The notes beneath the pieces were generated by a model. The model ran no database searches and had not been told where the DNA came from. It was given only the letters and a program-made list of their open reading frames with translations. A stretch of 64,000 nucleotides of DNA from Symbiopectobacterium purcellii (GTDB taxonomy: Bacteria > Pseudomonadota > Gammaproteobacteria > Enterobacterales > Enterobacteriaceae). The number at the start of each line of letters is the position of its first letter. Position 1 is the stretch's first letter. The stretch is from assembly GCF_019797845.1 (NCBI RefSeq), contig NZ_CP081864.1, positions 1,922,001 to 1,986,000 on the forward strand, in the 5' to 3' direction. Of the stretch, positions 28,129 through 46,645 are shown piece after piece. Made by a program: the position numbers and the translations under genes.

Positions 28129-29019
28129 TTAATCCATTTGTGACAGCAGGGAACGACGGATGCCATCGCCCAGCAGATTCACAATCAGTACGCTGAGGGT
28201 AATGGCCACACCCGGCAACATCACCGTCCAGGGCGCGGCATACACCAGTTCCAGCGAATTGCCTAACATGGCACCCCATTCGGGCGTTGGCATTTGAGCG
28301 CCCAGATCGAGAAAGCCCAGTGCTGAAATATCCAGAATGGCGATAGAGAGCGCGCGGGTAAACTCGGACACCAGCACCGGCACGATATTGGGTAACACCA
28401 CGTACCAAATGATATAGCGGGTTGATGCGCCGTCTAACCGGGCGGCGATCACATATTCCTTATCCATCTCATCGTGTACGGCAGTGTAGAGCGTTCTCAC
28501 CATGCGCGGCAGCAGCGCCAGCCACACGGCCAGCATAGCGTGCGTCAAATCCGGGCCGATAAAGGCAATCACCACGATAGCCAGCAGTAATGAGGGTATT
28601 GACAGTAACGTGTCAAGAATATGTTTCAACAATGCGGAGCGCAGGCCGTGTGTTACGCCTGCTAATGTGCCGAGCACAATGCCGCAGAAGGCCGCCGCAT
28701 AGGTGACGATCAGCGCTGAACCGACGGTCGCCGCAGTACCGGTCAATAACCGGCTCAATAGGTCGCGCCCCAGATCGTCCGTTCCGAGAAAAAAGGAGAC
28801 TTCACCGTAATGTGACCAGGAAGGGGGCAACAACTGGTAGCCCAAAAACTGCTGATCGACAGCATAAGGGGCGATGGCCGAACCAAACAGACACAGAAAC
28901 AGCAGCGCCAAAAATCCGTATAGCCCAATCATCGCCAGCGTATCGCGATGGAAAAATTGCCAGATATCCCGCACGCGGCTGGGCAGGCGCTTTTCACTGT
29001 AAACGTTATCGAAGGGCAT
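28129..29019 (-). CDS. sapC: SapC, ABC transporter permease
   Basis: Inner-membrane permease of the Sap system, 296 residues as in E. coli, with about six helices. Conserved stretches are [44 protein letters not shown] and the ATPase-contact loop AARLDGAST. The first codons ([10 protein letters not shown]) match E. coli SapC (MPYDSVYSEK). In E. coli the sapC start lies inside the end of sapB. Here sapB is 2.66 kb upstream, and the native ribosome site inside sapB is lost. The sequence just before the ATG shows no clear replacement, so SapC expression could be altered. Confidence 0.95.
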
Positions 29020-29020
29020 A
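29007..29020. repeat. Att-like direct repeat, sapC-side copy
   Basis: TATCGAAGGGCATA here and TATCGCAGGGCATA at 31676-31689 differ at one of 14 positions. On the coding strand this is TATGCCCT(T/G)CGATA, the overlap of the sapB stop and sapC start in an uninterrupted operon. The copies bound the 2.67-kb insert. Confidence 0.7.
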
Positions 29021-29164
29021 TGATTTCACTTGAACTGCTTTTGATGCATGTGGTGTTACTCTACTTATATCAATCATATCATTACCTTGGGTCAGAAAAA
29101 CACCGAGACAAAGTAGAGATAATCGCTGATTCACACTGACTGGATGTCAGGTTCGTGATGTCCT

Positions 29165-29284
29165 GTGCTGCCGCTTTTTTACCGATACCGCCGGGGAAAG
29201 AAGCCCATAGCGTTAAGCATAGGTGATTATCCTTCTATATCCCTGTCGCAGGCAAGAGAGCGTGGGCAGCAATTTGCTCTCTGG
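29165..29284 (+). pseudogene. Fragment of a P4-type phage integrase (N-terminal domain)
   Basis: The frame reads LPLFYRYRRGKKPIALSIG, then DYPSISLSQARERGQQF. This is the N-terminal DUF4102-like pattern of P4-family tyrosine recombinases (YRY..GK....LG.YP.vSLaeAR). Similarity stops near 29284 and nothing of the catalytic domain remains. It lies about 145 bases inside the sapC-side repeat, where an integrase usually sits next to its attachment site. It is a dead remnant. Confidence 0.65.
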
Positions 29285-29332
29285 AGGATCACCGACGGTT
29301 ATGACCTGTGTGTCGAGCTACCGGAATGCCGT

Positions 29333-30412
29333 TTACTGCTCTGCATTTATTCTTTCAAAATAAGGCATTTTTTTGTCTTTCATTTTATCAAAAGAGAATT
29401 TGGTATAGTTAATATCAGCATATCCTTTCACCAGCATCTTTCCTTCCTTAAGGTCAGACAGGCTGGTCCATACGGTATATTCCGTCTGTGACGTTTTGAC
29501 CTCTCCGCGCGCCTGCCGCTCGTCTACCGTGATGTCTTTAATACGATCAAACCTGTTCATAATATGAGCTAGCGTATTCATCGCGAGCGCAGCATTTACC
29601 GGTTTAGGTACAGAGGTGGTATAAAATACACCACGAATGAATCGGCCTACAGACGTGTCTGAAGAGGGGAGTGCCGCAATGGCAATACCGCTGTCTGGTT
29701 GACGGATTGATACGTTGCCAAGCGTTGCGTGAGAACGATCTATATTGGTCAAATGCGTATAGTTATTGAGATTCTGCAAGTGCCAGGGGAAACCTGGTCC
29801 ATTGGTCATAACCCGAGTTGGATTTTCATAAACGGTTAATTTACCATCAACAGCTTCAATCACGATACTGCCGCCATCTTTATCATAGAAAGCATAATGA
29901 AGTGGCGCTTTAATATTACCAAATCCGTTAATAACAGGAGGCCGGAATTTGGTCTTTTCGACAGATGCTTTGACTTCACTGACGCGGGAAAATTGAGACA
30001 GGGCCCATTCGCCGATCGCCGTTACCGGGATAGCATTTTGATATTCATTAGGCTTTACATCATCAAGATCCGCACTGTTTATCAGACTCGCACTGAATGA
30101 AAGCCCCCCGCTGTTCATACCCTGGAAAATGTTATAAATATCACCGTCGTCATATACATTGGTACTAATGGCAAGTATTTTATAGTGAGACTGATAGCGA
30201 GCTCCCGCTTTGCCATCGGGTGTTTTATTCTGAAAAAGGGTATTTTCTGGGTAATAGGTTATCCATGAAGGTAAATCTGTGGTTAATTCAAGCGTGCGGC
30301 CATGATATAGATTATTATTGATGTCCTGAATGGCCAAGCAGGTAGAGGGTTCTGCGCTAAAGGGGGCAGAGGAAATCAGCAAAAACATAAAAAAAAGAAG
30401 GTGTTTTTTCAT
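29333..30412 (-). CDS. Periplasmic choloylglycine-hydrolase-family amidase (linear amide C-N hydrolase)
   Basis: The 359-residue protein has a signal peptide (MKKHLLFFMFLLISSAPFSA) and then Cys25 as the likely N-terminal nucleophile. Further family positions are GR39TLE, MNSGGLSFS (an Asn), MTNGPGFPWHLQNLNNY (the second conserved Asn) and SVGRFIR (the late Arg). The Asp usually three residues after the first Arg is Glu42 here. Members cleave amides such as bile salts, penicillin V or acyl-homoserine lactones; Gram-negative relatives exist in Pectobacterium and Agrobacterium. The substrate cannot be told from sequence. It has a strong AAGGAG site, is AT-rich compared with sap genes, lies inside the sap operon insert and has a Fur-box-like site 26 bases upstream. 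Confidence 0.8.
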   Translation of the reverse strand: MKKHLLFFMFLLISSAPFSAEPSTCLAIQDINNNLYHGRTLELTTDLPSWITYYPENTLFQNKTPDGKAGARYQSHYKILAISTNVYDDGDIYNIFQGMNSGGLSFSASLINSADLDDVKPNEYQNAIPVTAIGEWALSQFSRVSEVKASVEKTKFRPPVINGFGNIKAPLHYAFYDKDGGSIVIEAVDGKLTVYENPTRVMTNGPGFPWHLQNLNNYTHLTNIDRSHATLGNVSIRQPDSGIAIAALPSSDTSVGRFIRGVFYTTSVPKPVNAALAMNTLAHIMNRFDRIKDITVDERQARGEVKTSQTEYTVWTSLSDLKEGKMLVKGYADINYTKFSFDKMKDKKMPYFERINAEQ

Positions 30413-30437
30413 TCAAGATACTCCTTATGATTAAAGT

Positions 30438-30456
30438 AATAATGATTATCAATTAA
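30438..30456. promoter_or_regulatory. Fur-box-like site upstream of the hydrolase gene
   Basis: ATAATGATTATCAATT matches the Fur consensus GATAATGATAATCATTATC at 12 of the first 14 positions and 13 of 19 overall. It lies 26 bases upstream of the hydrolase ATG, in the promoter position, and suggests iron-repressed expression. Confidence 0.5.
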
Positions 30457-30631
30457 GTATCTCTACCGCATACAGTCTATTGTAATGATACTCGATCAGA
30501 GCGCTAAATCAGTTCAAGTTAGAGCAACATATCAAGGATTCAACGCTGTTAATTATATCAGAACACGTGATTATTTCGAGTGTCAGAGCACCCTTTGGCA
30601 GAGGGAGGCTCTTTTTGAAGAACAGAGTCAA

Positions 30632-30795
30632 TCACTGGTGGGCATCGCGCTGTTAGCCGATATGAGAGCGGTGATGATACACGCGGAGAGAAACCAACGC
30701 CGATTATAGCTGCCCGAGAGCACCGGCTGTGCTGAACCCTGTGGTGATGACGATTAACGAAATGGCAACGATATAAAGTGACGACAGTAACCGTT
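30632..30795 (-). pseudogene. Degraded membrane-protein fragment, MFS-transporter-like
   Basis: On the minus strand one frame gives LLSSLYIVAISLIVITTG then FSTAGALGQ. After a one-base shift it continues YNRRWFLSACIITALISA, then a stop. A hydrophobic helix, a G..GQ..NRRW loop and another helix resemble the TM2-motif A-TM3 region of drug-efflux MFS transporters. The gene has no start and is frameshifted. The assignment is by pattern only. Confidence 0.3.
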
Positions 30796-30945
30796 CGGTT
30801 TATTTGTCTATAAACAAGATAGGGTCTGAATGAAAGAGAGGTAGGGTCCTTCAACGCTGGGATATTAAGAGTGATAGTTAGATGGCGTGTCAGCCAGTTG
30901 GCTAGCGTCGTTGATTAATTCATGTAGAATCACAACACTTTTCAC

Positions 30946-31321
30946 CTAGTTATCGCACTCATTGGTTGTGCAGTTATTTGCCAAAACCCCATAAACATCT
31001 TTGGTATACTCATTATGTATCACGAATGTGTTATGTCGTGTTAGCGTTATATCCCTAATGAGGCCTGCTATAGCCATTTTTAACTCGGTTTTTAAAGAAG
31101 ATTGCACGTCATCACTGTCGGCATGCTTCATGTTAGAGATTAATTCAGAAATGTATTTTCTTTAGCTGTAATCCGGCTCGGGTTTGTGATAAGCGTTTAA
31201 TTCGGTTACGTAAGAATTAATGATCCCTTTGTTATAGGTTGCAGCCCTTGGGGGGGCCGACATTGTCTTGTAATGTCCGCCACATAGGGTGTTGATGACG
31301 TTCTGAACCGACTCTGTTCAT
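30946..31321 (-). pseudogene. Broken gene for an unrecognised AT-rich protein of about 125 residues
   Basis: An ATG at 31319-31321 has a good AAGGAT ribosome site. After a few codons a frameshift is needed to reach a long frame: TESVQNVINTLCGGHYK, then NKGIINSYVTELNAYHK, a TAA at 31162-31164, then ISELISNMKHADSDDVQ and a final stop at 30946-30948. The last 61 residues remain an open frame. The stretch reads like real protein in one frame apart from the TAA. No family was recognised. An 18-bp palindrome lies just upstream. Confidence 0.45.
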
Positions 31322-31331
31322 GGTGTTATCC

Positions 31332-31349
31332 TTAATGATTAATCATTAA
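31332..31349. promoter_or_regulatory. Perfect 18-bp palindrome, operator candidate
   Basis: TTAATGATTAATCATTAA equals its own reverse complement. It lies 11 bases upstream of the start of the broken gene at 31321, where a repressor of that gene would bind. It is too AT-rich to be a terminator. Confidence 0.4.
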
Positions 31350-31490
31350 TGAATATCGTATCGTCGTGCTCCGCCAATGAATGGACTGCTGAATATTCTC
31401 CCCGAAAGAGAGAATAGGTAATATCAAAAAACATTATTGTGCTACGGGCGTCGCTGCCAGCGCATGTTAAACCTGCAAAGTGAAAATGCC

Positions 31491-31560
31491 TCAGCGCACG
31501 CCGATAATGTCGAGTGCATCTTCAAGCGTGAAAAAGGGCTGGGGTGAGTGGTCCTTGTAT
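31491..31560 (-). pseudogene. Short coding scrap inside the sap insert
   Basis: The minus frame reads PYKDHSPQPFFTLEDALDI, then IGVR and a TGA at 31491-31493. A stop lies just upstream. It looks like the C-terminal end of a lost gene. No family is assigned. The rest of 31350-31674 shows nothing else. Confidence 0.25.
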
Positions 31561-31674
31561 GGCTACCCATGAAGGTCTTCACTCATGATGAGATGTAGAT
31601 ACGGTGTGTTGATCACCTTAACGCATGAGTGATTACTCAATCGGTTGATGTCTATTTATTATTCTGTGATAGCC

Positions 31675-32640
31675 CTATCGCAGGGCATACCATTCCTTAT
31701 GTTTCAGTGAATTCGCCATTGCGCCCCAAATATCGGACAGCACATTAACCGTAATCACCATCGCTCCGACCACCATAACGCCGGCGGAGATAGCGGAATA
31801 ATCCTGCTGGCGAATGGCATCCACCAGCCAGCGTCCTATACCGGGCCAACTGAACACCACTTCGGTAATGATCGCCAGCGTCAACATGGTGGGAAACTGA
31901 AGTCCTAGCTGCGGTGCAATGGGCGGTAGCGCATTACGCAGCACATGGCGGCGAATAATGGTAAGGCGCGACAGACCGCGGGTGGCGGCGGCTTTGACAT
32001 AATTCTTGCTGATCACATCCGTGGTGCTAATGCGCATCAGACGAATGACTTCCATCGTGGGGCCGACGGCCAGCACAATAATCGGCAAAATGAGATGGCG
32101 CACGGCGCTGATCAGCATTTCATCGCGATAAGGAGAATTGGACAACCAGGCGTCAATGAGCGCAAACCCAGTCACCGGCTCAACCTGATAAAGCAGATCG
32201 AAACGGCCTGAAACCGGCAGCCAGCCGAGTTGCAGTGAGAACAGTAACGTCAGCAGCAGCGCCAGCCAAAATACCGGAATAGAGAAACCCACCAACGCGA
32301 TGGCGCTGATGATGATGTCAGGCGTTTTATTGCGCATCACCCCCGCGGTGACGCCGAGCGGGATGCCGACTAACAAAGAGAGTGAGAAGGCCAACACGCA
32401 CAGTTCAATGGTGGCGGGAAGCACTTCCTTTAATTGCACACTGATCGATTCGCCGTTAATCGACGAAATACCCAGATCGCCGCGCATCAGGCTGCGCATA
32501 AAGAAGCCGTAGGCGTCGAACAGCGTGGCGCCGCCCAGTGGGGCGTTGGGGGTGTAGTAACAGAGGCTGAAGCCGACCAATGTGAGCAGCATCAGGGTTA
32601 TCAGCAACAGCAACAGGCGACGCAGGGTAAAAATGATCAT
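31675..32640 (-). CDS. sapB: SapB, ABC transporter permease
   Basis: Inner-membrane permease of the Sap system, 321 residues as in E. coli. It has [73 protein letters not shown] (ATPase-contact loop), [20 protein letters not shown] and the exact family end KHKEWYALR. The ATG overlaps the sapA stop by 4 bases. Its end would normally overlap the sapC start, and the foreign insert begins immediately after. Confidence 0.96.
31676..31689. repeat. Att-like direct repeat, sapB-side copy
   Basis: TATCGCAGGGCATA, the partner of 29007-29020 (one mismatch). It contains the last codons and stop of sapB. Confidence 0.7.
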
Positions 32641-34610: not shown

Positions 34611-34708
34611 CGCACTCCAAACGGCTTCTCGTAAGCGCGCAAGGGGAGCACGACATTGCTCACATTGCTTCCAGTATTATTTTAGCCAGCGTTTGCTGGC
34701 TTTTTTTT
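34611..34708 (+). ncRNA. ryhB: RyhB iron-responsive small RNA
   Basis: The stretch contains AGCACGACATTGCTCACATT followed by GCTTCCAGTATTATTTTAGC, the conserved core of RyhB that pairs with sdhD, sodB and other iron-protein mRNAs. It ends in the terminator GCCAGC-GTTT-GCTGGC plus eight T. The 5' end (about 34611) is inferred from the promoter. RyhB is made when Fur is inactive and works with Hfq. In E. coli ryhB lies by yhhX, so its position between the sap and psp operons is different. The first 30 bases differ from E. coli. It is convergent with pspF, whose stop is 10 bases past the T run. Confidence 0.88.
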
Positions 34709-46524: not shown

Positions 46525-46645
46525 GCAGGTGAATGCAACGTCAAGCGATGGGCGTTGCGCTCCATATTGTCTTACTTCCTTTTTTGAATTACTGCATAGC
46601 ACAATTGATTCACACCATGCCGACGTTTATGTCGGCATTTTTTTT
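46525..46645 (+). ncRNA. fnrS: FnrS anaerobic small RNA
   Basis: The 121 bases begin GCAGGTGAATGCAACG and run through GGGCGTTGCGCTCCATATTG and TTGAATTACTGCATAGCACA. They end at the hairpin ATGCCGAC-GTTTAT-GTCGGCAT with eight T. The sequence is nearly identical to E. coli FnrS until the terminator stem. FnrS is induced by FNR without oxygen and, with Hfq, represses sodB, metE, folE and other mRNAs. As in E. coli it lies directly downstream of zntB. The start is inferred from homology. Confidence 0.93.

Follow-up and report, generated by a model that had tools for sequence, protein, structure and literature searches.

A decayed prophage-type remnant at the sapB/sapC overlap of Symbiopectobacterium purcellii and a predicted surrogate leader cistron for sapC

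In the 64,000-nucleotide (nt) stretch of the Symbiopectobacterium purcellii genome analyzed here (contig NZ_CP081864.1, positions 1,922,001 to 1,986,000; hereafter, the window), the genes sapB and sapC are separated by a 2.67-kb insert. This insert is almost certainly a prophage-type element in a state of decay, the tyrosine integrase of which recombined at the overlap between the sapB stop and the sapC start, such that sapB and sapC were each left with an attachment (att) core of their own. The short open reading frame (ORF) that the element arm places in front of sapC probably serves as an upstream cistron in place of sapB (a surrogate leader), whereby the stop/start overlap with sapC is restored and hence, by prediction, translational coupling. 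That the host, after the decay of the element, kept this leader along with a sigma70-like segment as an expression cassette of sapCDF is about as likely as not. Taken as a whole, the combination of att duplication, surrogate leader and retained cassette is likely to be the best explanation of the locus.

Both genes are intact and full length. On the minus strand, sapB (31675–32640) ends with KEWYALR* through one core copy, TATGCCCTGCGATA (31676–31689), and sapC (28129–29019) starts within the other copy, TATGCCCTTCGATA (29007–29020), both copies being located by pattern search. The two copies of the pattern TATGCCCT(T/G)CGATA are identical in 13 of the 14 positions; these bounding repeats and the full length of the two genes, 2.66–2.67 kb apart, are as described in the initial annotation, which was made from the sequence alone. 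All five genomes of the genus contain two core copies (on separate contigs in G002 and G003), and the G variant in the sapB-end copy is private to the window genome among these five. Across the 4,942,431 bases of the genome, TATGCCCTNCGATA matches at the sapB end and the sapC start only, and the reversed-pattern control has no matches. The equation of the core with the sapB/sapC overlap of E. coli, also proposed initially, is correct to within one base: the overlap in E. coli ET201 spans 14 nt (ATGCCTTACGATAG), and 13 of these are in common with the core, which is offset by an extra leading T. The sapB end (...YALR-stop) is intact in all 16 occupied sites examined, despite altered core bases in loci L084, L090 and L115.

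The comparison of sapB–sapC junctions across related genomes, suggested in the initial annotation, reveals the predicted empty sites. Among 80 SapC loci, the overlap is kept in 70 and is interrupted at that very place in 10; every locus from Brenneria, Pectobacterium or Samsonia in this set is empty. Empty relatives without the shared core, which had been named as a possible counter-indication, were not encountered in this set, the empty sites having the overlap. As to the other reservation, that the gap might be ancestral, it is indeed old within the genus, with the element shared by at least four of the five genomes, but the loci of the three other genera are empty. In four of the 10 interrupted loci (Lonsdalea quercina, L. 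britannica, Pantoea brenneri and the Symbiopectobacterium-group genome G002), a full-length integrase of 411–430 amino acids (aa) adjoins sapC and reads away from it, followed in G002 by an excisionase-like and an exonuclease-like gene and accompanied in the other three, by inspection, by phage-like ORFs. The same arrangement is found in Klebsiella phage records and in E. coli ML35 and 3426. The proposal that a tyrosine recombinase used the overlap as its att core is thus borne out.

The search with the L. quercina integrase (392 genomes, E 1e-100) yielded 10 matches, seven of which lie beside sapC (one of these broken), one on a contig that ends just short of the core, and two elsewhere. In the integrase tree, 18 intact sap-site integrases fall on one side of a branch with a support of 0.978, and the phi80-like and yciA-site integrases fall on the other; locus L127 is labelled in this tree from its flank. 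Wherever a viral contig extends far enough past the core, sapC comes next, and no free phage attachment site (attP) was seen among the viral contigs examined. Two junction types were searched for in 5,426 E. coli genomes and were found in six, a search that other junction types would escape. Among the SapC matches listed (at least 268 of the 392 genomes matching), 18 further loci include 10 occupied and eight empty sites, a biased set that gives no occupancy rate, given that 17 of these were picked for unusual open-frame length and one is a sibling. An order-wide search with the L122 integrase (394 genomes, E 1e-90) produced no match and is uninformative in the absence of a known-matching genome.

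The insert has a GC content of 43.2%, compared with 55.1% in the flanks. Just inside the sapC-side core lies an integrase N-terminal remnant (29098–29305, plus strand), directed away from sapC and split between two frames with one stop. Its Arm-DNA-bind_3 domain is matched in Pfam with an E-value of 1.4e-5 and 25.6 bits, slightly below the 27-bit cut-off, and tblastn aligns the stub with intact sap-site integrases at 74% identity over 43 aa and 50–54% over 28 aa. The integrase catalytic domain was not found in the window insert, only the N-terminal part being present, and the element is therefore a remnant. It is an integrated tyrosine-recombinase element, with a direct-repeat core at both ends that is single in empty relatives and with an integrase homologous to the intact ones. 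The initial description as a P4-type integrase remnant holds for the presence of the Arm-DNA-bind_3 stub but apparently not for its affinity, the closest intact relatives seen being lambdoid or phi80-like prophage integrases, not those of P4 satellites (a comparison of integrase relatives, in which satellite genes were not searched for).

The remnant also contains a putative surrogate leader ORF (29006–29077, minus strand), brought in by the element, which overlaps sapC by 14 nt (29006–29019) in the same manner as sapB does in empty sites. The phage arms adjoining sapC have a short ORF with an ATG start that is in frame with sapB and reads across the core up to the stop. Of the 171 entries screened, 143 were viral loci and 28 came from genomes, E. 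coli or phages, with several entries overlapping on one contig; the junction pattern was matched in 59. Four viral-contig matches (L177, L229, L236 and L259), judged to be off the sap core, were excluded before counting, and L127 was not counted as a junction, its contig ending just short of the core. A leader ORF with an ATG start and at least eight codons is present in the sapB frame of 34 of the 36 distinct junctions, in the sapC frame of one and in the third frame of none. When only the first members of clusters at 70% identity are considered, the leader is found in 13 of 14 in the sapB frame and in 0 of 14 in each of the other frames, compared with 2.36 of the 14 clusters expected from dinucleotide shuffles, where none of 200,000 draws reached 13. 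The last nine codons before the core contain no stops in the sapB frame as opposed to 32 and 40 in the other two. The presence of a stop at the leader-end place in all 36 junctions stems from the core itself, which does not explain the open frame upstream. None of six relatives at other att sites has a leader ORF of at least eight codons in any frame, although three of these relatives are near-identical and, in all but phi80, the position of the core was assumed from a shared motif. The leader peptides are not conserved, the frame alone being kept, and this free divergence of the peptide suggests that translation as such, and not its product, is what matters.

The native Shine–Dalgarno sequence of sapC, AAGGA, sits inside sapB and is lost at occupied sites: the median duplex energy is −6.2 for native sites (n = 70) and −2.5 for occupied ones (n = 21), and the value for the window is −1.6. 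The Shine–Dalgarno-like AAGG (29085–29088, minus strand) lies 7 nt before the leader ATG, with a duplex energy of −3.9, which ranks this leader among those with a site of moderate strength. The earlier statement on the loss of the native SapC ribosome site is accordingly confirmed by the duplex energies, but it leaves out the leader ORF that the element provides as a replacement. The element does not supply a new SapC N-terminus: the start codon used is the native ATG, which lies within the core.

The second component of the predicted cassette is a candidate sigma70 promoter, TTGCCT-N18-GATAAT (29226–29255, minus strand), directed toward the leader and sapC and located antisense within the integrase stub, which emerged from a promoter-site listing and from the conservation of its hexamers. 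It was followed in a set of 11 old decayed elements (four Symbiopectobacterium genomes, Winslowiella, Erwinia rhapontici, E. phyllosphaerae, Pantoea coffeiphila, G122, G067 and G367), from which L131, L139 and L143–L145, with truncated or broken integrases, were kept out owing to their otherwise intact arms. The motif TTGC(C/T)T-N18-GATAAT occurs on the sapC strand upstream of the leader in all 11 stubs (eight of eight clusters), and the leader is kept in nine, the exceptions being L009 and L133. By comparison, GTGTACAC in the junction arm is present in all 16 intact or young junctions and in none of the 11 old decayed ones. The distance from the −10 hexamer to sapC is 338–342 nt in intact phages, 120–240 nt in the old decayed stubs and 206 nt in the window. 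At alignment columns that are invariant in eight intact or near-intact phages (L131 being used as a near-intact reference), 0 of 88 hexamer cells are changed in the decayed stubs compared with 102 of 462 other cells (P = 2e-9) or with 36 of 278 cells in the rest of the conserved block (P = 3e-5). At the extreme, the sapB–sapC gap of G067 is only about 0.3 kb, and the insert essentially consists of the promoter-like segment and the leader cassette. Another candidate, TGATATGA as an extended −10 promoter some 55–63 nt (approximately) before sapC, was dropped because the ATG conserved in it belongs to the leader as its start codon and because the −10 hexamer is not conserved at its sixth base.

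Under the proposed explanation, the prophage integrase would have recombined at the overlap, duplicating the core and leaving sapB and sapC each intact. The arm ORF, in frame with sapB and with its end running across the core, would have regenerated the stop/start overlap before sapC and, with it, presumably, translational coupling. The prophage may also have supplied a promoter for sapCDF, and upon its decay, the leader and the sigma70-like segment within the integrase stub would have been retained for sapCDF.

An origin of the gap without site-specific recombination, through a transposon or as ancestral spacing, might be suspected from the lack of a complete integrase in the window insert and from the occurrence of the gap across the genus, but it is hardly credible in view of the exact core duplication, the empty sites in close outgroups and the intact integrases at the same position. 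More weight attaches to plain usage of the att site, whereby the overlap would be duplicated, sapC would be read from weak upstream signals, and the in-frame ORF would reflect chance or passive inheritance. Several observations count against a surrogate leader and in part favor this account. The junctions are homologous and not fully independent, with a median ungapped identity of 0.48 among 12 representatives; the clusters merge to seven at 60% identity and to three at 55% (each still with some member that has a leader), so that, with ancestry shared, it is uncertain how many cases are independent. The Shine–Dalgarno sequence is poor at several leaders (−0.9 in the enteric type, +0.6 in L042 and 0.2 in L139), sapC of E. 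coli ML35 is itself preceded by a fair one (−5.3), and the leader peptides vary freely. Some frames of the six relatives at other sites are also stop-free near the core, only the ATG ORF being missing; the leader ATG is lost in L009, where sapC itself is frameshifted, and the leader ORF of L133, read by eye, ends 6 nt before sapC. Plain att usage is nevertheless rather unlikely because the sapB frame alone is open, far in excess of the shuffled expectation, and because leaders stay open in decayed elements with a broken integrase gene, whereas simulated neutral decay at 0.2–0.8 substitutions per site leaves the leader in just 13–51% of the runs.

The conserved segments before sapC could also be relics of the att arm or of integrase coding, that is, protein-binding sites and not expression signals, a reading that is doubtful but somewhat less so than plain att usage. 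The promoter-like segment of intact phages does indeed belong to the integrase coding sequence (motif GDYPSISLSQAR), being made up of codons that are conserved in integrases, and the arm is presumably a binding region for Int and host factors. The same hexamers occur in three of three phi80-type relatives and in none of five at yciA or other sites; the motif is absent from all seven enteric-type junctions, including the younger stubs L143 and L145; and promoter-like sites show no excess, with six found and 7.1 expected from shuffles. Moreover, the old decayed set was chosen by the author, and the hexamer test followed sight of the alignment, although the site had already been listed. Binding sites, however, leave the open reading frame unexplained, and GTGTACAC is gone from the old decayed elements in which the leader and the hexamers persist. 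Given the integrase-coding motif, its absence from enteric-type junctions and the lack of site excess, the promoter stays a candidate. Altogether, the surrogate leader cistron appears well supported by the frame statistics, and the retained promoter–leader cassette is plausible but unproven.

The initial annotation knew of no sapB/sapC overlap used as an att site. The site is in fact already in print: prophages at sapB have been described in E. coli CC119 Shiga toxin-producing strains, where a 13-bp attB at sapB overlaps with the coding sequence of sapC (PMC10132054), and four Klebsiella prophages lie between intact sapB and sapC (PMC7371120). What is new here is the proposed surrogate leader cistron and the possible retention of a promoter–leader cassette. 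These prophages and the window element have the same attachment site and homologous integrases, with ML35 and two Klebsiella records in the sap-site clade, but the former have full-length integrases, and the latter is a 2.67-kb stub with hydrolase cargo; the available parts of the two accounts mention neither a leader ORF nor sapC expression. In the open-licence PMC literature, no report was found of sapC survival or of a leader behind a sap-site prophage, and the available part of a study of transcript and ribosome-bound RNA of S. endolongispinus (PMC13345370) does not name sapC. The closest functional parallels are the dusA-targeting islands, which enter on the 5′ side of the gene and supply a new promoter and N-terminus (PMC8409611, PMC4482086), and SXT at prfC, named as the same type of 5′-side rescue (PMC8409611). 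Like these, the window element enters at the 5′ side of a gene and would supply replacement expression signals, here candidate ones; unlike these, it leaves the SapC N-terminus unchanged and appears to supply an upstream cistron that regenerates the gene overlap. Phage phi80 and its relatives at yciA/tonB have homologous integrases (49% for phi80, 64% for E. coli E3), also encoded beside the core and reading away, but use another att site and have no leader ORF of at least eight codons.

A choloylglycine/penicillin-V-acylase-family hydrolase gene (29333–30412, minus strand, as the sap operon), the cargo of the element, is intact and encodes 359 aa, assigned by domain search, with a signal peptide recognized by inspection. 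The distant blastn matches of the insert to 12 plasmid records are confined to this gene. A decayed relic (30824–31437, minus strand) matches the sister locus L005:1627–2238 by blastn at 70% over 620 nt, and the homologous stretch overlaps a 222-aa ORF (L005:1739–2407) without assigned function. The AT-rich insert had been said to contain one live and several dead genes; the low GC content and the single intact ORF agree with this, and the dead genes that could be traced are two, the integrase stub and the relic. Within the genus, four genomes out of five have the hydrolase gene, in intact form in the window and NZEC151 and in broken form in the other two, and the integrase stub is common to the same four. 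The fifth, G002, has no hydrolase match and an intact integrase, and therefore probably carries a different prophage. The sap-site element of Symbiopectobacterium NZEC151 contains an O-antigen-acetylase-like gene (L041:5865–7835; PHROG 6705, E 1e-138) that was not found in the window element. A tRNA att site is ruled out, the window containing no tRNA gene. At Rfam gathering scores, the whole window contains only two small RNAs, RyhB (34644–34708) and FnrS (46525–46640).

Other loci provide additional observations. The L128 integrase is 63–67% identical to the sap clade but has no sapC within 1.5 kb, so that the family seems to have switched its target site at some point. The insert of Erwinia phyllosphaerae contains a second, truncated copy of the sapB 3′ end (L115:7696–7903), which suggests a nested or repeated event. 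Two Klebsiella phage records, L152 and L153 (MK448237.1 and MK416013.1), include the host sapC, sapD and sapF as phage genes. The SapC relatives nearest to that of the window come from NZEC151, a record titled Serratia marcescens 1001295B and S. endolongispinus, placing the window in the Candidatus Symbiopectobacterium group; the Serratia-titled record (L042, JADMXW010000002.1), with a SapC 98% identical to that of the window, matches G002 and is probably mislabelled. In E. coli, the plasmid record NZ_AP040230.1 has annotated sapB/sapC at 131608–131933; the E. coli collection has 12 matching places on plasmids.

It is slightly more likely than not that temperate phages integrating into gene overlaps carry a surrogate upstream cistron, plus a promoter, in the attachment arm, keeping the downstream half of the operon transcribed and coupled, and that host selection then preserves only this cassette, down to the 0.3-kb scar of G067. 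If so, phages would evolve attachment-arm features that protect a split host operon by mimicking the end of the upstream gene and not the target protein, and the persistence of integrase stubs beside sapC in several genera would be explained. The lysogens, decayed scars and empty sites would then represent a natural experiment on the translational coupling of overlapping genes.

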